Assembly: GCA_017514785.1 (NCBI GenBank)
Contig: JAFWIO010000046.1
Location: 1-59,183 of the forward strand
DNA length: 59,183 bases
Reading direction: 5' to 3'
Source: Eubacterium sp.
GTDB lineage: Bacteria; Bacillota; Clostridia; Lachnospirales; Lachnospiraceae
In this document: positions 4,887-39,680 of the stretch, piece by piece
How the letters are laid out: every line of letters begins with the position of its first letter
How positions within the stretch are numbered: position 1 is the first letter of the stretch
Program-made: the position numbers and the translations under genes
The notes under the pieces: generated by a model
The model's database searches: none
The model's input: only the letters and a program-made list of their open reading frames with translations
Told to the model about the DNA's origin: nothing

Positions 4887-4944
4887 ATTTTATAGCGCTT
4901 TACCGCGTTGAAACAAAAAATGAAACCGACTAAAATATACGCAC

Positions 4945-4973
4945 TTCATATAAAAAAGATACTATCATATAAT
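4945..4973 (+). promoter_or_regulatory. Promoter of giant-protein cassette 1
   Basis: TTCATA at 4945-4950, a 17-base spacer and a perfect TATAAT at 4968-4973. The block aligns without gaps to the promoter of cassette 2 (14377-14405): both read GCACTT-Y-ATA, seven bases, GATACT, four bases, TATAAT. The shared non-consensus GATACT inside the spacer suggests a common regulator or common descent. Confidence 0.7.
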
Positions 4974-4998
4974 AAAATGTACAATACTAGAATGTATC

Positions 4999-5039
4999 AT
5001 TGGGTCTAGTGTGCCCTTTTGGTGATACTATGACCTAAT
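4999..5039 (+). promoter_or_regulatory. Leader hairpin in 5' UTR of giant gene 1
   Basis: A long imperfect hairpin: 4999-5006 pairs with 5032-5039 (one G-U), 5007-5012 with 5025-5030 (one G-U), with one bulged base at 5031. It lies between the predicted transcript start and the ribosome-binding site. It is not followed by a T-run, so an mRNA-stabilising or regulatory role is likelier than termination. Cassette 2 has a hairpin in the equivalent place. Confidence 0.55.
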
Positions 5040-5080
5040 ATGGGAACTAATATATTCATACTCGAAAGGAGAAAAATGAG

Positions 5081-8000
5081 ATGAAAAAGTACTTGAAAAG
5101 AGTTATTGCTATCGTGGCAGCGATCGCAATGACAGTGACAGGAATGACGTTTACACCGTCAAAGACAAGTGCTGCTACCGATTGGATTGATGTGGCGGAT
5201 TCTAGAATACCTACAGCAACATCTGGTTCAGCAGCTACAGTTGAAAGGTATACCCTTGGAACAGCGACAGATTTCGATGAGCAAGGTGTTTGGGACTTGC
5301 AATCTTCGCAAAACCAATGGGCTAACTGGCATGGTAGATATAAAAATGCCGATGATTATGAAGGGTTTACAGTCCACAACCAAGTTTATCAAAACAGAGG
5401 TGGTATTTATGTTTGGACTCACGACTTGAAACCTCAGTCTGCATTTAATCTACAGCAAGGTAAAACATACCATTTAACAGTTACGGTTGATTTTACTGGA
5501 GTTAATGCAGATCAGCCTACCCAGATGGTTACAGAGGGTGGAGATACTAATATGGATGTGTCTAAAACTGCGACAGCAGGCGCTAGCACACAGACATACG
5601 AAGCAGATGTAGTGCCAGGTAGTGGTGAATTTAACTTGAAGTTCTGCTATACAAAGAACTATCAAACTTGTGAAGTTGGTACATTTACATTTACAAGTAT
5701 TGTATTTGAAGAAGCAGATACATTTATACCGCTAGCTAATGCTACAATTACACAACCTAGTGGTACACCTTGGACGCTTTTTGCAGAGACAAATGGCGAT
5801 AATAAATGGGGTCGAATGTCTTATGACATAGATGGAACAGCGGCCAATGTTAACGGAACTAACATAAGAGTAGACAATGGCTCTGGATGGATGGAAGCAT
5901 GGGCTACATATGCTAAATTACTTAATTATGGAGCTATTGCTAAAGATACAGATAATCATTCGCTTGTAGATGGAAACTTCTATGAAGCTACTATAAATTA
6001 TAGTGTTAGTCAGACTACACCTACACCAGTGTCAGGAGAACCTAGAATGCTAGGAGTTAACTTCTTTGGACAGGGCGTGGAGGAATATGAAGTAGATTCG
6101 TTAACTAATAATATAACTATTGAAGATTTCCAATATGATGCAAGTAACGATGATATTATTTTCTGGCTTGATGAAATAAAAGCCGGAACAGAATTTAGAG
6201 TAGATTCTATTACATTCACACCAGTTGAAAGTGGATGGGGAATGGTACCTGTAAGAGCAACAGATACTGATCCTAAATTTACACCTACTGGCACACCATG
6301 GACTATTAATGTACTTAGAAATGAACAAGAAACAGACGGAACTTGGGGTCAGATGAAGTACAAAGTAGATGGTGATGCATCTGCTATTGGTAGTACAAAG
6401 ATGAGACTACTTAGCACATCAGGTGTTAAGTCTAACTGGTGGAATTCAGCTGCATTGGTAGATTATGCTACAACAGCTGGATTAGAAGAAGACTTTACTT
6501 ATACAGGTACTATTACATTTAATAGTACAAATGCTACAGAAAGTGGCAAGAAACTATATGTATATTTCCAAGGTAATGAGTACGCATTCTCACTTAACTC
6601 AGGAAATACTACATTAAATATACCTTCTTTCGTTTATGATTCAGGTGCTTCTAAAGATATCGAATTTAACTTTGAGGAGATACCTAATAATACAGATGTT
6701 TATGTAAATGATATTACATTTACAAAAGCACAAGATGAACAAGACTTTGTTGTAGTACCACATAGTGTGGATCATATTGCAACAAAGAATAATATTAATA
6801 CACCATGGACTTTACATGCTGAATACAATGGTGTTCCAGAGACTGGTACATGGGGCAAACTATGGTACAAAGTAGCTGGTACTACTCAGGCTCAGATTCA
6901 GGATATGGGAAGTACTACTATTAGAGTAGTAAACAATGCTGCAGCAGAGCAGTGGGTAAGTGCTAAACTTGCAAACTACACTGTTGGAAAGATGACAGCA
7001 GGACACTCATATACATGTACAGTTACATGGGATTACGAAGATAATTCTAATAAGTCAGGCGCTTCAGGCGATATCCTAAGTATGGCTATCCCTGGTGCTG
7101 AAGATGGAAACAATACATTTAACATGGACGCAGATGATGAAACATTCACTACTCCAGAGTTTGAATTTAATGGTTCAAGTTCAGATGTTGTTTTCGCATT
7201 AGATAAGTTAAGAAAAGGAAGTGACATTTCAATTAAGAGTGTTACTTTTGAACAGACTGATGATGATTTTACTGTATTAACAAATGACGGTGAGTATTAT
7301 GCTATCAGTGGTACACCATGGAAGTTAAGAGCAAACGGAACAGGCGATTCACATGGTGCTATGAAATATAAAGTTGATAGTCCTGCAGCTACTATTGGCA
7401 ACACTACTATGAGACTTACAGCAACAGGTGAGAACAAACAGTGGTGGTGGTTATCAGCAAAATTAGAAGATTATGCTACAACAGCAGGATTAATTGAAGA
7501 CTTTACATATAGTGGAAGCGTGGTTGTTAATGTTAGCCAGGCAGTTCCAGCACAGGCATTAGATATTGTATTTAATAATCATACATTTACAAATGCTAGC
7601 GCATTAACAGCAGGAACAAACACAATTCCATTGAGTCAGTTTGTATACACTCCAGCTGAATCTAAAGATATTGAATTCAACTTGGGTGGAATGCCAAACA
7701 AGACTGACTTCTCAGTTTCAAGCATTACATTTACAGCAGTTAACCCTGAAGGCTGGATTCCAGCAGCTCAGAACACTGATGTAACAGCAGGCGTATGGAC
7801 ACTACATTCACAGTACGATGGACAACCTACAGGAACATGGGGAAGAATGTGGTATAAGACATCTGGATCAGATTTAGATGACACTACTGTTAAGGTAATG
7901 GGACCAGGTGGAGAATACGTTTGGAACACAGCTACATTAACAGACTATTTGGCAAGTAGAATGTCAGCAGGTCATACATATGCAGTTGATATTGACTACA

Positions 8001-11000
8001 CTATTGCTAACGCTACAGCAGGTGATACAGTAACTATTACGGTTGGAAATAACCCTGGTTCAGTAGAGTCTGTTGCTAACGGATTAAACGCATATAGTAT
8101 TGAGTCATTTGAATATGACGGTACTAATGAAGATATTCAATTCATTCCAGACGGACTCACAAAGGGAGCTGAATTTACAGTTACTGGAATTACAATTGAA
8201 CAGTTGGATGCTGGATTTGAAAATGTACCATCAAATAATGAAAACTTTAAACCAGCAGCAAATAACCCATGGACATTGTTCGCAGCATATAATGCAAGCA
8301 CAAATACATGGGGTGCTATGAAGTATAAAGTAGAAGGAACAGGAGAAGATGTTTCTGATACTACAATGCGTCTAGTGACAAACAGTCAGTCAGATGACTA
8401 TAACTGGACAATAGGAACATTAAAGAACTATGCTACTACAGCAGGTCTTGATACAGACTTTGCATACACAGGAGCAATAGTAATTAATGATGAAGCTGAA
8501 GGAACAATTAAAGTAGTAGTAGACGGAACAGAATATACTCAAGATTTGAGTCAGAGTCATACTATTGCAATTCCTCAGTTTACATTTACTGGAGCATCTA
8601 ATGACATTACATTCTTCTTCAATAATATGGAAGATGGAACAGACTTTAATGTAGAAAGCATCACATTTACAAGAGTGGATGCAGGATGGCAGAAGGTTCC
8701 AGCAAACAATGAAACATTTAAACCATCACAGGAAAACCCATGGACATTGACTACTATCAATGATGGCGTTAATACATGGGGTAAGATGCAGTATAAGGTA
8801 GATGGAACTGCATCAGCAGTAAATGGAACAACTATTAAGGTTGTAAATGCTGGCGGAACAGAAGAGTGGAACTTTGCTAAGTTAAAGAACTACTTAACAA
8901 GTGAAATGTCAGCAGGACATACATATTCATTTGATATGACATACACAATTGCAGGCGCATCAGCAAATGATAAGATGACAATTGCAGTTGCAAACAACCC
9001 AGGCTCATTAGAGACAGTATCAAATGGAACAAACACATACAGTATTGAGTCATTTGACTATGATGGAACAAATAGTGACATCGTATTTATGCTAGATAAG
9101 CTATCAAATGGCACAACACTAAAAGTGAATAGTATTACAATTACACAGTTAGATGCTGGATTTGAAAATGTACCAGCAAACGTAACTGGCGGATATAATC
9201 CAGATGGAACCCCATGGTACTTAACAGTAACTTATGGTGGAAATTCATGGGGAGCAATGAAGTACAAGGTAGAAGATCCATCTTCTGCACTAGGAAACAC
9301 AACACTTAGACTAGTTAACAACAGTCAAACAACAGAATATTCATGGACAAGTGCTGCGTTACCTAACTACGCTACTACAGCAGGATTAGAGAGTGACTTT
9401 GATTACACAGGATCAATCATTATTGATTCAGCAGCAGAAGGAATTCTAAAAGTAGTAGTAGATGGAACAGAGTATACATTAGATCTAAGCCAGAGTCATA
9501 CATTATCAATTCCTCAGTTCACATTTAGAGGAGCTGCTAATGGTGGATCAGATGATATTGTATTCATGTTTGATCAGATGGAAAACGGCACAGACTTTAG
9601 TGTAGTAAGCATGTCATTCCCAAGAGTAGATAATGGATGGCAGAAGGTTCCAGCAAACAATGAAACATTTAAACCATCACAGGATAACCCATGGACATTA
9701 ACCACTATCAATGATGGCGTTAATACATGGGGTAAGATGCAGTATAAGGTAGATGGAACTGCATCAGCAGTAAACGGAACAACTATTAAGGTTGTGAACG
9801 CTGGCGGAACAGAAGAGTGGAACTTTGCTAAGTTAAAGAACTACTTAACAAGTGAGATGTCAGCAGGACATACATATTCATTTGATATGACATACACAAT
9901 TGCAGGCGCATCAGCAAATGATAAGGTGACAATTGCAGTTGCAAACAACCCAGGCTCATTAGAGACAGTATCAAATGGAACAAACACATATAGTATTGAG
10001 TCATTTGACTATGATGGAACAAATAGTGACATCGTATTTATGCTAGATAAGCTATCAAATGGCACAACACTAAAAGTAAATAGTATTACAATCCAACAGT
10101 TAGACGCTGGATACGAAAACGTACCAGCCAATGTTCAAGCCGGATATAATCCAACTGGAACACCATGGTACTTGACTGTTACAAATGATGGCTCATCATC
10201 ATGGGGAGCAATGAAGTATAAAGTAGATGGTCAATCAGGAGTGGTTGGTGATACTTCATTCATACTTACAAATAACAGTGGTACAACAGATTACTCATGG
10301 ACAAGTGCTACATTGAAGAATTATGCTCCTACAGCAGGATTGGAAAGTGACTTCGCATATACAGGTTCAATTCAATTCAACCCAGAAGCTGAAGGAACAG
10401 TTTCAGTAACATTCAATGGCACAACATATACAAAGACATTCTCAAATGCAGAAGGCGGACACACACTTACAATCCCAGAATTCACATATCGTGGAGCTGA
10501 TTACGGTGAGAGTGATGACTTCGTATTCAACTTTGACCTAATGACAAATGGTACAGAGTTTGCAGTTGAGAATATGACATTTGTAAGAGTTGAACCAGAA
10601 TGGATTAAGGTTCCTGGAACAGAAGGCGGCGTAAGCCCTACTGGTACTCCATGGACACTAAAATCATTCAATAACAAATCAACTACATGGGGCAGAATGC
10701 AGTATAAGGTAGATAGCCCTGCATCAGATATTGGTAACACAACTATGAGACTAATCAATATGGGTGGTGACAACGAATGGAACTTCGCCGTATTGGAAGG
10801 TTATGCAGCATCTAATATGTCAGTTGGCAAATTCTATACAGCAACTGTTCAATATCAGTATGATGATAATGGATTTGGCAAGTCAGGAGCTGCAGGAGAC
10901 GAATTAACAATGTCTCTAAACGGAACATCTTATGACTTAGATGTAGATGAGACTTCATTTACAACAGAAGAGTTTAACTATACAGGTAGTGATTCAGATG

Positions 11001-14000
11001 TAACATTCTTCTTGGATAAACTATCTAACGGTGGTGAACTAAAAGTAACAAGTGTTACATTTACACCACAAGGTAACTGGACAAGAGTACCAGATAATAC
11101 ACCTACATTTAAGATAAGTGATATTCCATATGATTATGCATTTAGAAATAAAGATGGATCATTCGACCCAACTCACGTGACAGGAACTCGTGACTGGTAT
11201 GTATTTGCCGGCGAGTGGAATAACCCACAAGATCCAAGCATTATTGAAGGATGTATACTATATTATGATCAGGATTTCACAAAGACTGGTCAGCCAATGG
11301 TTAAGATTGGTGAAGGTAACAGAGGAGACCCTGCATGTGCTCAGGTTAAAGTACATAACGATGAAGCATATCAGGATCTAGATGACTATACAAACTACTA
11401 TATGACATATACATTCTACTCATCAGAAGAAGGTGATGTTCATATTACACACGAAGGATACGAGCCTAATGCCCCTGAAAAATTCCATGTTCAGAAGGGT
11501 ATGAACACTTACAGAAAGATACTAACAATCCTTCCAGAAAGTAGAACAACTGAAAACAGCATCTACATGAGCTTAACAGCCAGCACTTATGGTCCTGGTG
11601 GAGAAGTAATACCAGACGGTACTCCACTTCCAGTAGGAACAGAGTTATACGGATTCAAGGTAGAATACCAGAGAACAGATGCTGATCTATTTACACTAAT
11701 TACAGATAGTAGAGATGGTACAGCACATTATGACCCTATCGTTAAAGATAACGATAATAGAGGACTTCTAAATGGTTACACTAACTCATTCTACGGTGGA
11801 AGAATGAGCTATAAGGAAGGAGCTTATGCAGAAGGCGAAGATGATATCGCTAAGATGACAGTTCGTCTTGATGCAACAAGTGGAAACTTTGGACCACTAG
11901 ACAGTCTAACTGCTCCTTGGCCATGTCATTTGCGTATTCCAAATGATTACTTCTATGGAAGAACAGATACTGATGGAAATGCTTTAGTAAAAGACAAGAC
12001 ATATAAGTTGAGATTCTTCTATAATGTAGACCTTACAAACGCTGAGAGCGAAATAGCTGATGGCAAAGGTCTAGTAATGGTTAGACAGGGCTATGATAAC
12101 TGGGTACCAGCTAGATATGAAACTAGCGGTGGTCTAAACATGGCTAACGGCACAATTACTGCTAAGAACGGATACACAAGTCACGATAACTATAATAAGA
12201 CAGGCGGTATTGATATGGTTTATAATCCAGATGCAACAATACCTACTGAATATGTACAGTTTGACTTTAGTGAGATTCCAGCAGGTGCAGAAATTTCAGA
12301 TATTAGTTGGGAATTCTGGGCACCAAAATATGATGTATATATTGACGGAGTGAAGAATACTGCAAGTCCTATCACTGAAGATGAGGGATCTAATGTATAC
12401 ACATTCCCTACAAATGAGACTCAAGGATTTGAGAATGTTGCTTACTTCGAAGATGGCGATGGAAACCAATATGCTCCAGGATCAACAGTTCCATTTGCAA
12501 CATTTAATGATATCATCCAGGGAGACTTATATGTAACAGCAGTTAGAAACCATACTGTAACAATAGTTGATGCTGATCATCCTTCAGTAGAAATTCAAAC
12601 AGCAAGTGTTGAACACGGTGATAACTATACACTTCCAACTATATCAGGAGTTGAGTACTATACTTATGATAATGTTGATTACGATCCAGGCGATGTTATT
12701 GGACCAATCGAGGATGACGAAACAGTATATGCTCATCTAGCACAGAATACTCATACAGTTATTATTCTAAATCCTGATGGAACTAACTATAGTACAACAG
12801 TTGTGGCGGATGGTGATCCGTTCACATTCCCATCTGGACAGGACTTGGATAACATTAAGAACTTTGTTAATACAAGTGATCCTACAGATACTAAGACTAA
12901 GGGTACACAGATTTCAGTAACTTCAGATTTGACATATCAGATGGTACCTTATAACTACTACACAATTACAATTGATGGTACAGTAGATCAGACAGTGAGA
13001 GAGGATCAGACATACACATGGCCAACAGGTAGTCACGTGATAGGATATGATGATAAAGGCTCACAAGAAAGATATAATCCTGGCTCTACATTTACTCCGG
13101 CTAGAGATTATGATGTAACAACTGTATATGGCTACTCAGTAACTATCGTAGATGAAAATGGAGATGTTCTATATGAAGAGGACGACATTGAATCAGGTGA
13201 GTCGTTCACATTGTTTGATGAGACAGAACCTGGATACGAAAACATTGACCACTACGAAGGCGTTGAAGGTACAACAGGTACATATCAGCCAGGAGAAGCA
13301 GTTGAGATTCAAGATTCTGACTTAACTTTCAAGGCTATCATGAAAGCCCCTGTAACTACATACACATGGACAGTAGACGGACAGCCGGGTGGAACAGTTG
13401 CAGCAGGAACAGAGATTACTCTTCCTTCAACAGCTACAGTTGGTTACTTACTAGAGTACAAAGATGGACAAGATCAAGGTGCAACAGATGATCTTTACAA
13501 ACCAGCTAGTACTTATGTAGTAAATAGAAATGTAAACTTCATTTCAATTAACTCAGTAGCTCTTAACCCTATACCAGGTGCTGCGATGAGATTTGAAGGA
13601 GATTCTAGTGAAACAGCTAAGGATGCTAGAGGTATTGCATTTGCAGCTACACTTACTGTAAACGGTGGAACAAATGAAAATATTCTAAGTTCTGATGCAT
13701 TCCAGACAGGTATGATTATTACTTCACTTGATGCATTTACAGATATCTTTGAAGAAGATATTACAATCGAGAAAGTGGCAGCTGATACAACAGGTTCAGC
13801 AGTTGATATCCAGAATACTGGAAAAGATGCTGAGAAATGGACAACAGGACAGCCTGGTAATTACCGTTGCGGAATTACTCATATGAAGGATGCTAACATC
13901 GCTAGAGATTTCGTTGCTAGAGGATATACAAAGATAACATTCGTAGACGGATCTACATATGATACAATTTACGCTGATAATCCTAGTAGCCAGACAGCAA

Positions 14001-14107
14001 GAAACATTAAGCAAATAGCAACATTAATCTACACAGAACATTATGATTACTATGCTACATTGCCAAAGGCATGGCAAGAAATGGTTCTTGAATGTATGGA
14101 ACACTAA
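5081..14107 (+). CDS. Giant secreted modular surface protein (3008 aa) with eleven alternating beta-sandwich-like repeats
   Basis: Unnamed exported protein. The signal peptide (about 1-31) ends TSA-ATDW. Residues 32-227 are a divergent first module. Eleven ~157-176-aa modules follow, starting near residues 228, 404, 573, 744, 904, 1061, 1219, 1376, 1536, 1693 and 1855. Each begins with a PW[TKY]L segment and WG-x-M-x-YKV and ends in a SITF strand. They alternate strictly between type A (SAGHTY) and type B (ATTAGL). Residues 2000-2205 and 2205-2420 are two domains shared with the paralogue at 14497-18540. Six ~60-70-aa beta repeats (TVTI, TFP, PG motifs) span 2420-2815, and a conserved ~190-aa terminal domain spans 2821-3008. 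No LPXTG, transmembrane anchor, SLH or dockerin motif is visible. The modules resemble carbohydrate-binding beta-sandwiches (CBM4/9/22-like) in layout; this is inference. A tiny gene follows 19 bases later. Confidence 0.85.
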   Translation: MKKYLKRVIAIVAAIAMTVTGMTFTPSKTSAATDWIDVADSRIPTATSGSAATVERYTLGTATDFDEQGVWDLQSSQNQWANWHGRYKNADDYEGFTVHNQVYQNRGGIYVWTHDLKPQSAFNLQQGKTYHLTVTVDFTGVNADQPTQMVTEGGDTNMDVSKTATAGASTQTYEADVVPGSGEFNLKFCYTKNYQTCEVGTFTFTSIVFEEADTFIPLANATITQPSGTPWTLFAETNGDNKWGRMSYDIDGTAANVNGTNIRVDNGSGWMEAWATYAKLLNYGAIAKDTDNHSLVDGNFYEATINYSVSQTTPTPVSGEPRMLGVNFFGQGVEEYEVDSLTNNITIEDFQYDASNDDIIFWLDEIKAGTEFRVDSITFTPVESGWGMVPVRATDTDPKFTPTGTPWTINVLRNEQETDGTWGQMKYKVDGDASAIGSTKMRLLSTSGVKSNWWNSAALVDYATTAGLEEDFTYTGTITFNSTNATESGKKLYVYFQGNEYAFSLNSGNTTLNIPSFVYDSGASKDIEFNFEEIPNNTDVYVNDITFTKAQDEQDFVVVPHSVDHIATKNNINTPWTLHAEYNGVPETGTWGKLWYKVAGTTQAQIQDMGSTTIRVVNNAAAEQWVSAKLANYTVGKMTAGHSYTCTVTWDYEDNSNKSGASGDILSMAIPGAEDGNNTFNMDADDETFTTPEFEFNGSSSDVVFALDKLRKGSDISIKSVTFEQTDDDFTVLTNDGEYYAISGTPWKLRANGTGDSHGAMKYKVDSPAATIGNTTMRLTATGENKQWWWLSAKLEDYATTAGLIEDFTYSGSVVVNVSQAVPAQALDIVFNNHTFTNASALTAGTNTIPLSQFVYTPAESKDIEFNLGGMPNKTDFSVSSITFTAVNPEGWIPAAQNTDVTAGVWTLHSQYDGQPTGTWGRMWYKTSGSDLDDTTVKVMGPGGEYVWNTATLTDYLASRMSAGHTYAVDIDYTIANATAGDTVTITVGNNPGSVESVANGLNAYSIESFEYDGTNEDIQFIPDGLTKGAEFTVTGITIEQLDAGFENVPSNNENFKPAANNPWTLFAAYNASTNTWGAMKYKVEGTGEDVSDTTMRLVTNSQSDDYNWTIGTLKNYATTAGLDTDFAYTGAIVINDEAEGTIKVVVDGTEYTQDLSQSHTIAIPQFTFTGASNDITFFFNNMEDGTDFNVESITFTRVDAGWQKVPANNETFKPSQENPWTLTTINDGVNTWGKMQYKVDGTASAVNGTTIKVVNAGGTEEWNFAKLKNYLTSEMSAGHTYSFDMTYTIAGASANDKMTIAVANNPGSLETVSNGTNTYSIESFDYDGTNSDIVFMLDKLSNGTTLKVNSITITQLDAGFENVPANVTGGYNPDGTPWYLTVTYGGNSWGAMKYKVEDPSSALGNTTLRLVNNSQTTEYSWTSAALPNYATTAGLESDFDYTGSIIIDSAAEGILKVVVDGTEYTLDLSQSHTLSIPQFTFRGAANGGSDDIVFMFDQMENGTDFSVVSMSFPRVDNGWQKVPANNETFKPSQDNPWTLTTINDGVNTWGKMQYKVDGTASAVNGTTIKVVNAGGTEEWNFAKLKNYLTSEMSAGHTYSFDMTYTIAGASANDKVTIAVANNPGSLETVSNGTNTYSIESFDYDGTNSDIVFMLDKLSNGTTLKVNSITIQQLDAGYENVPANVQAGYNPTGTPWYLTVTNDGSSSWGAMKYKVDGQSGVVGDTSFILTNNSGTTDYSWTSATLKNYAPTAGLESDFAYTGSIQFNPEAEGTVSVTFNGTTYTKTFSNAEGGHTLTIPEFTYRGADYGESDDFVFNFDLMTNGTEFAVENMTFVRVEPEWIKVPGTEGGVSPTGTPWTLKSFNNKSTTWGRMQYKVDSPASDIGNTTMRLINMGGDNEWNFAVLEGYAASNMSVGKFYTATVQYQYDDNGFGKSGAAGDELTMSLNGTSYDLDVDETSFTTEEFNYTGSDSDVTFFLDKLSNGGELKVTSVTFTPQGNWTRVPDNTPTFKISDIPYDYAFRNKDGSFDPTHVTGTRDWYVFAGEWNNPQDPSIIEGCILYYDQDFTKTGQPMVKIGEGNRGDPACAQVKVHNDEAYQDLDDYTNYYMTYTFYSSEEGDVHITHEGYEPNAPEKFHVQKGMNTYRKILTILPESRTTENSIYMSLTASTYGPGGEVIPDGTPLPVGTELYGFKVEYQRTDADLFTLITDSRDGTAHYDPIVKDNDNRGLLNGYTNSFYGGRMSYKEGAYAEGEDDIAKMTVRLDATSGNFGPLDSLTAPWPCHLRIPNDYFYGRTDTDGNALVKDKTYKLRFFYNVDLTNAESEIADGKGLVMVRQGYDNWVPARYETSGGLNMANGTITAKNGYTSHDNYNKTGGIDMVYNPDATIPTEYVQFDFSEIPAGAEISDISWEFWAPKYDVYIDGVKNTASPITEDEGSNVYTFPTNETQGFENVAYFEDGDGNQYAPGSTVPFATFNDIIQGDLYVTAVRNHTVTIVDADHPSVEIQTASVEHGDNYTLPTISGVEYYTYDNVDYDPGDVIGPIEDDETVYAHLAQNTHTVIILNPDGTNYSTTVVADGDPFTFPSGQDLDNIKNFVNTSDPTDTKTKGTQISVTSDLTYQMVPYNYYTITIDGTVDQTVREDQTYTWPTGSHVIGYDDKGSQERYNPGSTFTPARDYDVTTVYGYSVTIVDENGDVLYEEDDIESGESFTLFDETEPGYENIDHYEGVEGTTGTYQPGEAVEIQDSDLTFKAIMKAPVTTYTWTVDGQPGGTVAAGTEITLPSTATVGYLLEYKDGQDQGATDDLYKPASTYVVNRNVNFISINSVALNPIPGAAMRFEGDSSETAKDARGIAFAATLTVNGGTNENILSSDAFQTGMIITSLDAFTDIFEEDITIEKVAADTTGSAVDIQNTGKDAEKWTTGQPGNYRCGITHMKDANIARDFVARGYTKITFVDGSTYDTIYADNPSSQTARNIKQIATLIYTEHYDYYATLPKAWQEMVLECMEH
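8684..9178 (+). repeat. Near-identical higher-order repeat, copy 1
   Basis: About 495 bases encoding one type A module that recur 951 bases downstream with only scattered substitutions. The offset is exactly 317 codons. Confidence 0.9.
9635..10129 (+). repeat. Near-identical higher-order repeat, copy 2
   Basis: Second copy of the 8684-9178 segment at an offset of 951 bases. Divergence rises towards the end (FENVPANV versus YENVPANV). This points to recent duplication or gene conversion of an A-B pair. Confidence 0.9.
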
Positions 14108-14126
14108 TTGAAGGGAGGAAGCTAAG

Positions 14127-14264
14127 ATGAAAGATTTGTATATTAAACCAGAAGTAGAATTAAAAGAATTCAATATAGTTGATGTTATTACCGGCAGTGG
14201 TCAAGAAGAACAGACACAGAAGTCGGGAGACAGTAATGAACCAGGATGGTCAATCATTGTCTAA
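14127..14264 (+). CDS. Tiny conserved partner protein of giant protein 1 (45 aa)
   Basis: Short gene of unknown function with a strong ribosome-binding site (GGGAGG at 14113-14118, 8-base spacer), 19 bases after the giant gene and before its terminator. It starts MKDLYIKPEVELKEF and continues NIVDVI; a variable Gly/Ser/Gln/Glu-rich stretch follows, and it ends GWSIIV. A paralogue (18555-18704) sits in the same place after the second giant gene: 16 of the first 21 or so residues are identical and both end in W-S-I plus two residues. It has no signal peptide, membrane segment or cysteine. Conserved start, variable middle and conserved end recall a leader/core precursor peptide, but no modifying enzyme is visible nearby. 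A co-translated export or assembly partner is equally possible. Confidence 0.75.
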   Translation: MKDLYIKPEVELKEFNIVDVITGSGQEEQTQKSGDSNEPGWSIIV

Positions 14265-14278
14265 TAGCATTAAATAAA

Positions 14279-14314
14279 GAAACCCTCGGACTTATGTCCG
14301 AGGGTTTTCTTTTG
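14279..14314 (+). terminator. Rho-independent terminator of cassette 1
   Basis: An 11-12-bp GC-rich stem (14280-14291 with 14296-14307), a TTAT loop and a T-rich tail. It lies directly after the tiny gene, so giant and tiny gene form one unit. Confidence 0.95.
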
Positions 14315-14376
14315 TTCTGTCTAAACTATAAAACAAACTACCTTTCTAAAAATGATACTGTTTTGAATACATGCAC

Positions 14377-14405
14377 TTTATAAATTTTTGATACTTGTTT
14401 ATAAT
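14377..14405 (+). promoter_or_regulatory. Promoter of giant-protein cassette 2
   Basis: TTTATA at 14377-14382, a 17-base spacer and a perfect TATAAT at 14400-14405. It is homologous base for base in layout to the cassette 1 promoter (4945-4973), including GCACTT overlapping the -35 and GATACT in the spacer. Similarity continues upstream at constant spacing. Confidence 0.7.
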
Positions 14406-14417
14406 TAATATACTAAG

Positions 14418-14449
14418 ATGGCATAACTGTCTTTGGGTTTTTGTGCCAT
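14418..14449 (+). promoter_or_regulatory. Leader hairpin in 5' UTR of giant gene 2
   Basis: A 9-bp stem (14418-14426 with 14441-14449, one G-U) right at the predicted 5' end of the transcript. Its position matches the hairpin at 4999-5039 though its sequence differs. Confidence 0.5.
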
Positions 14450-14496
14450 TTAATATTTTATTGTAACTAAAAGGTTTTTACGAGAGGAGAAAAACA

Positions 14497-17400
14497 ATGA
14501 AAAAGCAATTGAGAAAGGCTCTAGCAATTTTAAGTGCAGTAGCGTTTGCTTTTACTAGCATTACATTTGGCCCAGCCAATGTAAGTGCGGCAGACACTTG
14601 GACACATTGTCAAGCATCAGCGAGCGGAACTACTACACAACCTAGTGGAACTCCATGGACTTTTGTTTCAACAAACAATAAGAGTTCTACATGGGGAAAT
14701 ATGGATTATTGTATTACAGATCCATCAGACCCATCAGATGTAAGCAGTTTAAAATTTAGAAAGAACTATAGTGGAATCGGAGGAAATGGAAAGCCTCTTG
14801 TTTTCTCATGGTTTTGGGATGCTGCTAAGTTAGAAGGATATGGTAACGATGTTCTTAATATGGAAAGTGATGTTAAGTATACAGGAACTATTCATATTAA
14901 TGCATCAAAAGCCACTGAAACTACTCAAAGTGGTGAACAGTGTAAGTTCAGAATTATACCTTTTGGACAGACAGAAATTGATACTACTTTAGCAGTAGGT
15001 GATAACGAAGTAGAAATTCCTGCATTTACTTATAGTGCAGGCAGTCCTGATATTGTATTTAACTTAATACAATTACCAAACGCAGGCGAAATCACAATCG
15101 CAAGTATTGAGGTTCAAAAAGTAACAGATGGTTATACAGATGTGCCAATCAATGAAGATTATAATCCAGATGATGACACAGATAACCCTTGGACTTTGAA
15201 AGTTCAGCGTTCACAATCAGATGATACTTGGGGAAAAATGAGCTACAAGATAGATGAAACTGGCTCTACATTACTAGATTCTACATATCTAAGAGCAGAT
15301 GTTGTTGGACATGATGATGCAAGCACTGGCGTAGATCAGGATGACCCACAAGCATGGTGGTGGTGGAATAGTGGAAAACTAGATAAATATGCTGATGATT
15401 CTGGAATGTCAGAAGGTAAATCATATGAAGGAACAGTTCATTTTGAGTATACTGCTCCAGATCCAGCAACAGGATATTCACCACAAATCAGAATGATTGT
15501 TAACGGTAACGTTCAGACTATCGCTCTAGATGAAGGCGATAACGAACTTCCTATACCAGAGTTTGAGTACGGAAGTGCTCTACCAACTATTGAGTTTAAC
15601 TTTGACTTACTTGAGACTGGTGCAGTCTTTAGAGTAACTGAAGTTGAGTTAACACAAGTAGGTGGAAACTGGGTAAGAGTACCTGAAGTGGAAGAAGGAG
15701 TACCATATGGCGTGGTAGTTCCTGTAGAGTATAATAGTTCAATGACACAATCAGGTGTTGTACTCCATAACTGGCAACTATTTAACGGATACTGGGGCGG
15801 TGAAGGATGTAAGTTATATTATGATAATGACTTAGAGAATCCTAGAGACCCATTGAAGATTAAGATAGGTGCTGGTAATAGATGGGAACCAGCAAGTGCA
15901 CAGGTTAAACTTACAAACACTGATGCATATCAGGAACTAGAAGATTATACAAACTATTATATGTACTATACATTTACTTCTACTCAGAAGGGTACAGTAC
16001 ATATTAACCAAGAAGGATATGATCCTGAAGGTTTAGAGAGAGTAGATATTACAGATGATGACTATGATTCTTCGGATGGACTTTATCATGTGACATTTAA
16101 GAAGATCTTTACAGTTCTTCCTGAAAGCACAGGAAACTTAACAATGTTCTGTACAGGTACAACATATGGACCTGGTGGAGTTGTTTTGGAAGATGGAGAT
16201 CCAGTACCAGAAGGAACTATTTTCTCAGACTTTAAGATTACTTATAGTAGACAGGACGCTGAAGGATGGACACTAGTTACAGATAGTAGACATCAAGATC
16301 ATCAGAATATTGACAATATAGTTGTTGATTCACAGCAGAATCCACTTCTTAGAGCTTATGCTAACTCTTATAACAAGGGTAGATTAAGCTATAAGGCTGG
16401 ATATAATGCAGATGGTGCTAATGACGTCGCTAAGATGGGACTTCGTCTTGACCAGACAGCTGGTTCAGAGATTGAAGATTATTCATTTGACGAGTCATGG
16501 GGCGCTAACTATCAGATTCCAAATGCAGCATTCTATAATAGAAATGATACAAATGGAAATCCTCTTGTAGATGGAAAATCATATAAATTAAGATTCTACC
16601 TATATGTAGATCTACCAGCTAACACAACTATGCCTACAGATACTAGTGGTATCATCTTTGTACAGCAAGGCTATAGATCAGATCAGTGGGCTAGATACAA
16701 TATAGGTTCAACTACTGGAACTAAGATTACAAAAGATGGCTTCTATATGGTAAATGGTTCATTCACTAAGAAGAATGGCGGAGACCCATATATCGCATAC
16801 GAGGGCGACAAAGAAGGCGGAATTGATTTCGTTTATGATTCACAGTGGAACACTGGAACTCGTAGCTATGACAACGAGCCATACAGTGTAATGTTAGACT
16901 TCAGTGAGTTCCCAGAAGGAACAATTATTAGTGGAGTAGATTGGGAATTCTATGCACCAGGATATAACGTATATATCGATGGTACAAAGAACAACACTGA
17001 CCCAATCATTGAAGATGTAGGACATAACACATATACATTCCCAAGCAACCAGACTCAAGGATTTGAGAATGTAGTTAAATATGTAGATACTACAGATCCT
17101 ACAAAAGAATATACACCAGGTCAGACTATTACATTTAATGACTTTAATGGTGCAGATATTAGAGTAACTGCTGTTAGACAGCATGAGGTTACAATAGACG
17201 GTGAACATAATGCATATGTTATTGACGGTGAGAACTATACATTCCCAACAAATGACACACCAGGATTTGAGAATGTAAAAGAATTCACAGACGGAGTTAA
17301 TACATATCAGCCAGGCCAGACTATTGGACCAGTGGAAGAAGACTTAGCATTTGAGTCAGTTCCATATGCTTCAACAAAAGTATATATTAGAGAAGGAAGT

Positions 17401-18540
17401 ACTACAGGACCTCTTCTAGTTACAGGTAATGTACCAGAGGGACAGCAGTATCAACTTCCTACAATTTCAGGAATTCAAAACTATACATATAACGGACAGA
17501 CATACAACGCAGGCGATAAGATTGGACCATTTACAGAAGATGTTACTGTAGTGGCTAATCCTACACCTACACACACAATTACAATTGTAAATGCTGATGA
17601 TCCATCAGAGACTCTATTGACAGTTACTGATTTCCCACATGGAGATTATTATGAATTGCCAGACCTATCACCAGATTATGATGTAGATTACTATGAATAT
17701 GATGGTGAGCCATGGACAATTGGCGAGTCTATTGGACCTATCAACGGAAACACAGTAGTAGAGGCTGTACTAGTTGAATATCACACAATTACTATTGATG
17801 GTGACTTCTACGCATCAGTTAGAGATGGCGGAAGCTTCACATTCCCTGATGGAGCTACAGCAGCTAAGATTGGTTATATCGAGGTAGAAGGTTCAGATGT
17901 CTTTGACCCAGGCACAGAAGTTACTGGCATTTATGAAGATAGAGATTATCTATCAATCGATGAAATGCAGATAACTCCTAAGCCAGGTGCTTGTATTTAT
18001 CTAAACGATAAAGACAAAGTAAACAGAAGAGGTATCGCATTTGGTGCAGAGTTCAGATTGTTATCACAAAGTGGTGAGATAATCAATTACCAAGAATATG
18101 AAAATGTTTACAAGTCAGATGCATTCAAACTTGGTACAATGATCACTACAGAAGACTTGCTATATGACTTCTTCGACGGAGACTTGGATCTAAGTTCAGT
18201 TCAGAAGGCACAGGATGCTGGACATCCAGAGTACATCAAGAACATTGCAAATGATTACTCATTCTGTGATGTAGAAGATCCTACACAGAACTTTGCTGAA
18301 TATCGTGCTGGTATTATCAATCTAAATGATTATAATATTACTAGAAACTTTATTGCTAAGTCATATGGTTATGTTGAAACAGCAAGTGGTAAGACTATTG
18401 ACGTTGTATATGCTGACTTAACACAGCCAAGATCAATTAAGCAAGTTGCTATTAACTTAAAGGCAGTTCCTTCATACTATAATAACCTTCCTCAGTGGAA
18501 GAAAGATATTATAGATGAGTGCGCAGCTTACTTAGACTAA
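14497..18540 (+). CDS. Large secreted modular surface protein (1347 aa), paralogue of giant protein 1
   Basis: Exported protein with a signal peptide (1-31, ending VSA-ADTW). It has the same architecture as the 3008-aa neighbour but only two PW/WG beta-sandwich-like modules (from residues 51 and 229). The two shared middle domains follow (about 409-590, with CKLYYD and GAGNR, and 590-828, with TDSR and GRLSYK). Five ~60-70-aa beta repeats span 829-1150 and resemble the Listeria-Bacteroides/InlB B-repeat style (inference). The conserved terminal domain is about 1150-1347, with PKPGA, RGIAF, SDAFKLG, YRAGI, YADL and SIKQVA segments. No cell-wall sorting signal is visible. The ribosome-binding region matches that of giant gene 1. 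A tiny partner gene follows after 14 bases. The two proteins probably arose by duplication of a whole cassette with later change in repeat number. Confidence 0.85.
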   Translation: MKKQLRKALAILSAVAFAFTSITFGPANVSAADTWTHCQASASGTTTQPSGTPWTFVSTNNKSSTWGNMDYCITDPSDPSDVSSLKFRKNYSGIGGNGKPLVFSWFWDAAKLEGYGNDVLNMESDVKYTGTIHINASKATETTQSGEQCKFRIIPFGQTEIDTTLAVGDNEVEIPAFTYSAGSPDIVFNLIQLPNAGEITIASIEVQKVTDGYTDVPINEDYNPDDDTDNPWTLKVQRSQSDDTWGKMSYKIDETGSTLLDSTYLRADVVGHDDASTGVDQDDPQAWWWWNSGKLDKYADDSGMSEGKSYEGTVHFEYTAPDPATGYSPQIRMIVNGNVQTIALDEGDNELPIPEFEYGSALPTIEFNFDLLETGAVFRVTEVELTQVGGNWVRVPEVEEGVPYGVVVPVEYNSSMTQSGVVLHNWQLFNGYWGGEGCKLYYDNDLENPRDPLKIKIGAGNRWEPASAQVKLTNTDAYQELEDYTNYYMYYTFTSTQKGTVHINQEGYDPEGLERVDITDDDYDSSDGLYHVTFKKIFTVLPESTGNLTMFCTGTTYGPGGVVLEDGDPVPEGTIFSDFKITYSRQDAEGWTLVTDSRHQDHQNIDNIVVDSQQNPLLRAYANSYNKGRLSYKAGYNADGANDVAKMGLRLDQTAGSEIEDYSFDESWGANYQIPNAAFYNRNDTNGNPLVDGKSYKLRFYLYVDLPANTTMPTDTSGIIFVQQGYRSDQWARYNIGSTTGTKITKDGFYMVNGSFTKKNGGDPYIAYEGDKEGGIDFVYDSQWNTGTRSYDNEPYSVMLDFSEFPEGTIISGVDWEFYAPGYNVYIDGTKNNTDPIIEDVGHNTYTFPSNQTQGFENVVKYVDTTDPTKEYTPGQTITFNDFNGADIRVTAVRQHEVTIDGEHNAYVIDGENYTFPTNDTPGFENVKEFTDGVNTYQPGQTIGPVEEDLAFESVPYASTKVYIREGSTTGPLLVTGNVPEGQQYQLPTISGIQNYTYNGQTYNAGDKIGPFTEDVTVVANPTPTHTITIVNADDPSETLLTVTDFPHGDYYELPDLSPDYDVDYYEYDGEPWTIGESIGPINGNTVVEAVLVEYHTITIDGDFYASVRDGGSFTFPDGATAAKIGYIEVEGSDVFDPGTEVTGIYEDRDYLSIDEMQITPKPGACIYLNDKDKVNRRGIAFGAEFRLLSQSGEIINYQEYENVYKSDAFKLGTMITTEDLLYDFFDGDLDLSSVQKAQDAGHPEYIKNIANDYSFCDVEDPTQNFAEYRAGIINLNDYNITRNFIAKSYGYVETASGKTIDVVYADLTQPRSIKQVAINLKAVPSYYNNLPQWKKDIIDECAAYLD

Positions 18541-18554
18541 GGAGGTACGGTATG

Positions 18555-18704
18555 ATGAAAGATTTATATTTAAAACCAGAAGTAGAATTAAAGAAATTCG
18601 ATACTGTTGATGTCATTAAGTGTAGCGACGGACCAAATAATGGTGAAGGCGTTGTAGCTAATGAAGATCCAACAGGTAAGGTTGATTGGTCGATCTATGG
18701 ATAA
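18555..18704 (+). CDS. Tiny conserved partner protein of giant protein 2 (49 aa)
   Basis: Paralogue of the 45-aa protein at 14127-14264. It begins MKDLYLKPEVELKKF, continues DTVDVI, has a variable Gly/Asn/Asp-rich middle with one cysteine, and ends DWSIYG. The ATG at 18555 (9 bases after GGAGG at 18541-18545) is chosen because it matches the paralogue; an ATG three bases earlier is also possible. A longer reading from 18519 would overlap the giant gene and is unlikely. The repeated arrangement of giant gene, tiny gene and terminator indicates a functional link. No known family is assigned. Confidence 0.75.
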   Translation: MKDLYLKPEVELKKFDTVDVIKCSDGPNNGEGVVANEDPTGKVDWSIYG

Positions 18705-18725
18705 AAAATTACTTTAAAGTAATAC

Positions 18726-18765
18726 GAAAAGGCTCAAGTATATTGCTTGAGCCTTTTCTTTTTTT
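18726..18765 (+). terminator. Rho-independent terminator of cassette 2
   Basis: A 13-bp perfect stem (18726-18738 with 18746-18758), a 7-base loop and a run of Ts. Confidence 0.95.
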
Positions 18766-39539: not shown

Positions 39540-39680
39540 ACGATGGTTATATACCAAATGCCGAAGACAGTAGGTGTCGTAAGACGTAAACGTAGTGCCT
39601 ACCGAGGATTTAGTAAAGACTATTTAATTTTAGACTTTATACCTCTCTGTCTTTGGATGGAGAGGTTTTTCTTATATAAA
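39540..39680 (+). ncRNA. L10-type ribosomal leader with attenuator
   Basis: Structured leader upstream of rplJ. It contains the hallmark CCGAAGACAGTAGGTG (about 39559-39574) and the complementary CCTACCGAGG (about 39598-39607), typical of the Firmicute L10 leader bound by L10-(L12)4. A terminator hairpin follows (39641-39647 with 39660-39666, then TTTTTC). Autogenous attenuation of rplJL is inferred from this arrangement. Confidence 0.85.
39641..39672 (+). terminator. Attenuator terminator of L10 leader
   Basis: ACCTCTC/GAGAGGT stem, a 12-base loop and a T-run, 60 bases ahead of rplJ. Confidence 0.8.

Follow-up and report, generated by a model that had tools for sequence, protein, structure and literature searches.

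Why does a bacterium carry a very small gene directly behind the gene of a giant surface protein, and why twice in succession? This question is raised by a duplicated cassette on contig JAFWIO010000046.1 of Eubacterium sp. (Lachnospiraceae), which was analysed over its whole length of 59 kb and is referred to here as the window. Two neighbouring transcription units on its forward strand each lead from a promoter through a giant gene and a tiny gene to a terminator. Giant 1 (positions 5081–14107, 3008 aa), a secreted protein whose N-terminal signal sequence was recognised by eye, is followed after 19 nt by tiny gene 1 (14127–14264, 45 aa), and giant secreted protein 2 (14497–18540, 1347 aa) is followed after 14 nt by tiny gene 2 (18555–18704, 49 aa, with an alternative ATG at 18552); the sizes and gaps reported in a first-pass annotation of the sequence are thereby confirmed. 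Each tiny gene probably encodes a precursor of the linear polyphosphorylated peptide (LPP) type, a family of ribosomally synthesized and post-translationally modified peptides (RiPPs), which would be processed in trans and coupled to the giant surface protein. The assignment to the LPP type is drawn from the leader, the register of a conserved Ser, the enzyme set and their co-occurrence, and the dedication to giant surface proteins from the pairing of the genes.

Selection on the tiny genes and their pairing with giants

Tiny genes are under purifying selection. In pairs of relatives with dS (synonymous divergence) above 0.3, where it ranged from 0.33 to 1.26, the ratio of nonsynonymous to synonymous divergence (dN/dS) was 0.06–0.27, with dN of 0.04–0.19. 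Judged by selection, they are therefore translated genes, as the first-pass annotation had supposed. Their products have no match in Pfam, and matches in NCBIfam are at chance level only.

Pairing was followed through 23 related genomes, including that of the window, which are called the genus below. The tiny-gene profile gave 51 confident matches (E <= 1e-7), and for 41 of these the next gene upstream, on the same strand, encodes a giant carrying the terminal domain of the window proteins, with gaps that are mostly 10–19 nt. The other ten are made up of five genes at contig ends (G007 twice, G008, G014 and G015) and five of a second class with the tail IDWF, which adjoin a membrane protein and a secreted protein, the latter of about 900 aa in three complete loci. 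Neighbourhoods comparable to that of the window, with tandem giant–tiny pairs, occur in several relatives; the duplicated cassette is real and recurrent in the genus, where by its genetics the tiny protein is dedicated to the terminal-domain giant. A scattering of tiny homologues away from such giants, which would have spoken against a partnership, is not seen within the genus. The pairing runs mainly in one direction: a tiny gene mostly implies a terminal-domain giant, but a tiny gene accompanies 44 of the 69 terminal-domain matches in the genus. The remaining 25 include at least one that is truncated by the end of its contig (G016:C34), as well as a few partial matches; one orthologous group, a terminal-domain protein of about 842 aa followed by a protein of 232 aa, lacks the tiny gene in all five genomes read. 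Of the roles first suggested for the tiny protein, that of a processed peptide fits best, and no specific support was found for that of an export escort.

The giants themselves have modules and a terminal domain in common, as had been annotated. Eleven tandem PW/WG modules of about 155–175 aa each in giant 1 (5714–11095) align with two in giant 2 (14599–15690), 13 in all, and the C-terminal domains to which the tiny genes are linked (13493–14104 and 17914–18537) are 32% identical. Giant 1 has no Pfam or NCBIfam family over the cut-off, and for the modules and the terminal domain there was neither a Pfam family over the cut-off nor a convincing match among solved structures; the modules may have a carbohydrate-binding fold, which is our impression from the sequence and not a result. 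Giant 2 as a query against named genome contigs returned no match, and the terminal domain of a relative, used in the same way, returned three loci, named Eubacteriaceae or uncultured Eubacterium.

Leader motif and serine register

The first 25 residues of the tiny proteins are conserved and the rest is variable, although 24 of 31 have W-[ST] among their last 14 residues. They begin with YxxPx[VAIL]. The register of this motif, counted from its aromatic residue (Y), was read in 75 distinct peptides, 33 from the genus and 42 from other genera (two of the latter from an order-level relative). P stands at Y+3 in 33/33 of the genus peptides and in 32/42 of those from outside. Ser stands at exactly Y+19 in 72/75, and Thr in none, a conservation that is partly built in by match selection, since profiles A1 and A5 reward both Ser and YxxP.

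If the conserved Ser of the window peptides is taken as core residue 3, the leader is 21 residues long, with Y-17, P-14 and x-12. The lasso precursor BsfA, in which the cognate kinase phosphorylates Ser3, is reported to have the same register (PMC10368454, in the text available), and the LppA kinase also acts on Ser3 and refuses the S3T variant (PMC13381572, likewise). From this register we infer the cleavage site, with Ser at a putative core position 3. For tiny gene 1 the predicted leader is residues 1–21 (Y5xxP8) and the predicted core 22–45, with Ser24 as the putative Ser3 phospho-acceptor, and Ser24 of tiny gene 2 falls in the same register. The distance from Y to Ser is 19 here, and 20–21 in cluster-resident genus peptides, compared with 18 to Ser3 in the LppA motif as printed.

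A leader-type peptide of 46 aa ending GGGW is also encoded on contig 12 of the window's genome (L073 7018–7158, minus strand), where no giant adjoins it. Its flanking genes are, as we take them to be, trmD-like and rplS-like.

An enzyme set encoded elsewhere in the genome

The enzymes that such precursors would need are present in the genus, and the set was assembled from the genomes before it was compared with the LPP paper. PqqD, the RiPP recognition element (RRE; PF05402 over the cut-off), occurs in 23/23 genus genomes and in 3/14 control genomes, the nucleotidyltransferase (NTase) family NTP_transf_5 (PF14907) in 23/23 and 2/14, and an HprK-like kinase in 22/23 genus genomes, at three places in that of the window. 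In the window, searched as the whole 59-kb contig, PqqD, HprK-like and NTP_transf_5 proteins have no match. The gene order at L113 is CpsB-Wzz-Wze-NTase-HprK-PqqD-protease-ABC, ABC denoting an ATP-binding cassette exporter. Contig 28 of the window's own genome (L104) carries NTase-HprK-PqqD-protease-ABC, with the exporter assigned by length and position, and contig 34 carries three secreted-looking proteins, two leader peptides, a lipoprotein, HprK, PqqD and the protease, with another NTase further along. In L103-type clusters and in L157, unlike in the window, precursor genes lie inside the enzyme cluster.

Among solved structures, the sole matches of the L113 PqqD are the lasso RREs TfuB1 and TbiB1. 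The protease resembles signal peptidases of the SipW/archaeal type and matches signal peptidase I, and its S30, H68 and D83 are invariant in 12/12 chosen cluster copies, two of them from the window's genome; residues of the types Ser, His and Asp are needed by LppS (PMC13381572, as far as its text was available). Exporter domains are recognised by Pfam in L113, L127, L068 and L156, whereas in L104, L110, L111 and L157 the exporter is assigned by length and position only.

Three variations on this set were noticed. At L156 2905–5190 an ABC exporter, its exporter domains identified by Pfam, has an N-terminal extension that by eye is like the signal-peptidase-like protease, as if LppS and LppD were joined. 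Leader peptides adjoin radical S-adenosylmethionine proteins at L077 695–2560, L155 3710–5575 and L079 7867–8976, with a fusion to an HprK-like domain in two genomes; these may be clusters of the LPP kind that add another modification. Next to an AAA protein (DUF815 by Pfam in L107) there is a further set of HprK and PqqD, at L107 9515–11538, L112 8843–11697 and L143 6081–9595, with no recognised leader peptide nearby.

Co-occurrence and pairing beyond the genus

Outside the genus, leader and kinase occur together. In a sample of 298 genomes of the family, perhaps a gut lineage, the leader profile matched 26 and the HprK profile 72. When the genus and the four weakest leader matches were dropped, the kinase was present in 20/20 leader genomes and in 50/276 others (Fisher 3e-14); with the weak matches kept, the counts were 23/24 and 47/272. 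In genomes first found by the second profile, unseen when the profile was built, it was present in 10/10 (p 9e-8). The HprK profile was built from loci found via tiny genes, which favours the finding of that subfamily.

The pairing with large secreted proteins also extends further. At L157 (genome G226), a single gene run comprises two secreted proteins, both with a copy of the same tiny gene behind them, and a transmembrane protein, HprK, PqqD, protease, ABC exporter and NTase; this is the arrangement of the window joined to the machinery, in a genome whose leader matches are weak (E 0.008). Genome G265 has 12 tiny matches, and in all ten loci fetched the tiny gene follows a protein of 406–565 aa within 13–52 nt; seven of the nine upstream proteins scored pass the signal-peptide rule, and HprK, PqqD and ABC are found together on another contig. 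In the order-level relative G045, tiny homologues lie 9–12 nt 3′ of secreted-looking proteins of 2093 and 1424 aa. A clear secreted protein of at least 300 aa no more than 260 nt upstream was found for 18/42 of the non-genus leader peptides examined, compared with a background of 24/287 genes (9.6e-8), and four more of the 42 have an upstream gene that is cut at its 5′ end. Read from the gene neighbourhoods, pairing with large secreted proteins is a feature of at least two genera, in which the C-termini are unrelated.

Tails shared by peptides and exported proteins

Many clusters encode, in addition, a protein that looks Sec-exported, which combines one membrane anchor or a lipobox with a hydrophilic linker and ends in a short C-terminal tail. 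In several clusters this tail matches that of the cluster's leader peptide, as with GFGPLIDG, WGPLE, IDWF, YELPFIP and GW[ST]GYY. Across 20 clusters, the tail similarity of true pairs was 516, compared with a mean of 333 after re-pairing, and 0/20000 re-pairings reached it; with orthologous repeats removed (16 clusters) the values were 382 and 257, again with 0/20000. A Sec-exported protein bearing the tail of the peptide in about half of the clusters tested is, as far as these comparisons indicate, a new feature.

Next to the window cassettes there is no tail partner. Elsewhere in the window's genome, on a different contig, a membrane protein ends in DEGWSPIVSPDDLKKNK, close to the window tail PGWSIIV; but a similar protein in G008 departs from the GWTGLY tail of its own genome, which makes the resemblance a lead only. 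Likeness to PGWSIIV was also noticed in a membrane-anchored protein with the tail EGWSPIV in three genus genomes (L046 2901–3317, L148 9315–9749 and L158 5649–6080), which in L046 and L148 adjoins what we take to be an rpoD-like gene. A second leader peptide of the window's genome (L103 11828–11968) ends in GDGDDIGDL..., and a secreted-looking protein of 191 aa on another contig (L046 12903–13478) ends in GDGDDIGDLINKP; a less exact likeness of these tails was seen in two more genomes (L141/L149 and L114/L148).

A possible pathway from precursor to cell surface

On this basis we infer a series of biochemical steps in this organism, together with a function of the peptide outside the cell. The giant and the peptide would be made from one mRNA. 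The YxxP leader of the peptide would be bound by a PqqD-type RRE encoded elsewhere, whereupon the HprK-like kinase would phosphorylate or polyphosphorylate Ser24 (core Ser3), and further additions may come from the NTP transferase. The Ser/His signal-peptidase-like protease would cut after Ile21 to remove residues 1–21, and the ABC exporter would release a core of 24–28 aa, while the giant would leave via Sec. Outside, the aromatic C-terminal tail of the core would serve the giant, most probably by helping it to assemble or to attach to the surface, and may compete or exchange with membrane-anchored proteins that bear the same kind of tail.

A more speculative extension, unlikely in our estimation, is that LPP-type peptides are dedicated structural cofactors of surface proteins rather than released products, with the tail filling a site on the giant or on a shared scaffold and anchored proteins with the same tail taking this site over outside the cell. 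If so, a RiPP pathway would control the mounting of adhesins and capsule-associated proteins on the cell.

Evidence against the proposal and alternative explanations

Several observations weigh against the assignment of the tiny genes to LPP-type precursors that serve surface proteins. Besides the partly built-in conservation of Ser and YxxP, a further 20 genus peptides, outside the set of 75, have Ser at Y+20 or Y+21 in 19 cases and at Y+19 in one, with P at Y+3 in 20/20; one of them is the stand-alone peptide of L073 and the rest are mostly inside HprK clusters. After YxxP, the leader is of the type DVITTS here, compared with VLxHQxIxFETxxS in Bacilli LPP as printed. Since nearly every genus genome has the machinery, no correlation with the tiny genes can be drawn there, and in the family-wide search for HprK at most eight candidates were scored per genome. 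A minority of the leader peptides outside the genus have a clear secreted protein upstream, and in the loci examined from other genera no match to the terminal-domain profile precedes the tiny genes, so the partner of the tiny gene is not one domain. The tail signal comes from about half of the clusters, the own partner ranking 1–3 in 8/16 and lower in the other eight. The exact tail GWTGL[YF] gave 21 matches in the genus, 20 of them tiny genes and the last not examined, and no anchored partner with the exact tail was found.

The variable Ser distance in the 20 related peptides weakens the argument from phosphorylation a little and thereby favours another possibility, namely that the tiny protein partners the giant without being modified: as an escort or assembly factor in the cytoplasm it would bind the terminal domain ahead of export, and its YxxP leader would be a relic or an element of the fold. 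Within the genus, the close linkage of tiny genes to this domain, across short gaps, agrees with such a binder. In other genera, however, the same leader sits 3′ of secreted proteins that lack this domain, and in enzyme clusters, and a simple binder leaves unexplained both the co-occurrence of leader and HprK-like kinase and a Ser at a near-fixed distance from YxxP. This explanation is regarded as unlikely.

It appears quite unlikely that the peptide acts as a secreted signal or antimicrobial of the LPP type, merely co-expressed with surface proteins and without a physical role in the giants. The outer function proposed here is putative, and the role of LPP is given as unknown in the available text of PMC13381572, both of which leave room for a signal; yet two or more genera, their C-termini unrelated, show the pairing, and this recurrence, together with the tails on membrane-anchored proteins, indicates a role at the cell surface. 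True lasso peptides, with the core threaded into a lariat, are highly improbable: leader motif, RRE, HprK kinase, NTase and ABC exporter are common to paeninodin-type clusters as described in the published text available, but neither core register holds a ring signature, and no lasso cyclase or B2 peptidase was recognised among the cluster proteins scanned, no genome-wide search having been made.

The lasso ring was examined in both registers. With the core starting after the conserved Ser, Asp or Glu occurs at positions 7–9 in 13/31 cores, compared with 15.9 in shuffled cores, and Gly1 together with an acid in 8/31. With the core starting two residues before Ser, residue 1 is Thr, Lys, Val or Leu in 22/22 and Gly in 0/22, and an acid stands at 7–9 in 17/22, a count for which no null was run.

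Relation to known systems

LPP were described in May 2026 with the components LppA, K, B, S, D and N (Popov et al. 2026, PMC13381572). According to the available text, experiments in Bacillus subtilis show polyphosphorylation of Ser3 by the kinase and removal of the leader by the protease, and translation and pull-down assays show that cleavage requires the RRE. The tiny peptides of the window are like LPP, so far as published, in their YxxP leader, variable C-terminus and Ser near the kinase position, and the genus is like it in its signal-peptidase-like protease, discrete RRE, HprK-like kinase, NTP transferase and ABC exporter, some clusters also adjoining capsule genes. The LPP exporter is MsbA-like, and the comparison with the exporters of the genus was made at the level of the ABC domain only.

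Besides the leader sequence after YxxP and the distance from Y to Ser, two differences stand out against the LPP account as available. The likely precursors here lie mostly outside the enzyme cluster, number up to twelve per genome and each stand 3′ of a large secreted protein, an arrangement that is new as far as it can be read from these genomes, in at least two genera; and their tails recur on exported proteins. Lying outside gene clusters, such precursors would escape cluster-based mining. The main text of PMC13381572 makes no mention of surface, secreted, adhesin, Clostridia, Lachnospiraceae, Eubacterium, orphan or lipoprotein, and no account of the pairing of such peptides with giant surface proteins was found in the literature searched. 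The view of the first-pass annotation that no described system has this make-up is accordingly to be narrowed, as the processing machinery is that of the LPP family, while the pairing with giants is not described in the LPP text available. Since the role of LPP is open in that text, likely precursors wired one-to-one to giant surface proteins, with their enzymes in trans, offer a testable clue to it.

Phosphorylated lasso peptides of the paeninodin/Bsf type (PMC8498205, PMC10368454 and PMC7533575, in the text available) share the YxxPxL register, the PqqD-type B1 protein, the HprK-like kinase, the NTase and the ABC exporter, but differ from the clusters studied here in their ring and in having a B2 peptidase in place of a signal-peptidase-like protease, and a cyclase, none of which was recognised in the clusters scanned. 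A likeness to the SynChlorMet cassette was also seen: three of four stand-alone HprK-like proteins scanned match ScmC (NCBIfam) best, at E 1e-7 to 3e-11, although these matches are far below the curated cut-off of 125 bits and no cassette member reaches its own.

Regulatory elements and surroundings of the cassette

The first-pass annotation had described two units with the same five parts, a leader hairpin among them. Promoter, giant, tiny gene and terminator are upheld in both, whereas the hairpin is weakly supported, being convincing in unit 1 alone, where it folds better than shuffles (z -2.56), and not in unit 2 (z -0.65). The promoter-like blocks, GCACTT-C-ATA, 7, GATACT, 4, TATAAT in unit 1 (4941–4973) and GCACTT-Y-ATA, 7, GATACT, 4, TATAAT as the pattern in unit 2 (14373–14405), have equal spacing base for base, as was claimed, and each matches the sigma-70-like pattern at 10/12 positions with a 17-nt spacer. 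Promoter-like sites are not enriched in the region over shuffles (46 found, 52.8 expected). The block can also be aligned with sequence preceding the giants of four related loci (L048, L050, L051 and L052), though not clearly at L053, and this alignment is better support for a promoter than the site score. A stretch before the hexamers, AAAAATGAtACcG..TTTtgAAT.., at 4910–4950 and 14335–14380, is conserved between the units and in the four related loci, and resembles a shared operator. Each unit closes with an intrinsic terminator (14279–14308 and 18726–18758) whose hairpin is far from chance (z -6.75 and -6.64).

Upstream of the cassette are genes for a GH16-like protein, a TPR-like protein (below the curated cut-off) and a transglutaminase-like secreted protein. 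At gathering scores Rfam has no match inside the cassette, and its sole match in the window is a ribosomal protein L10 leader (RF00557, 88 bits) at 39543–39680 on the plus strand.

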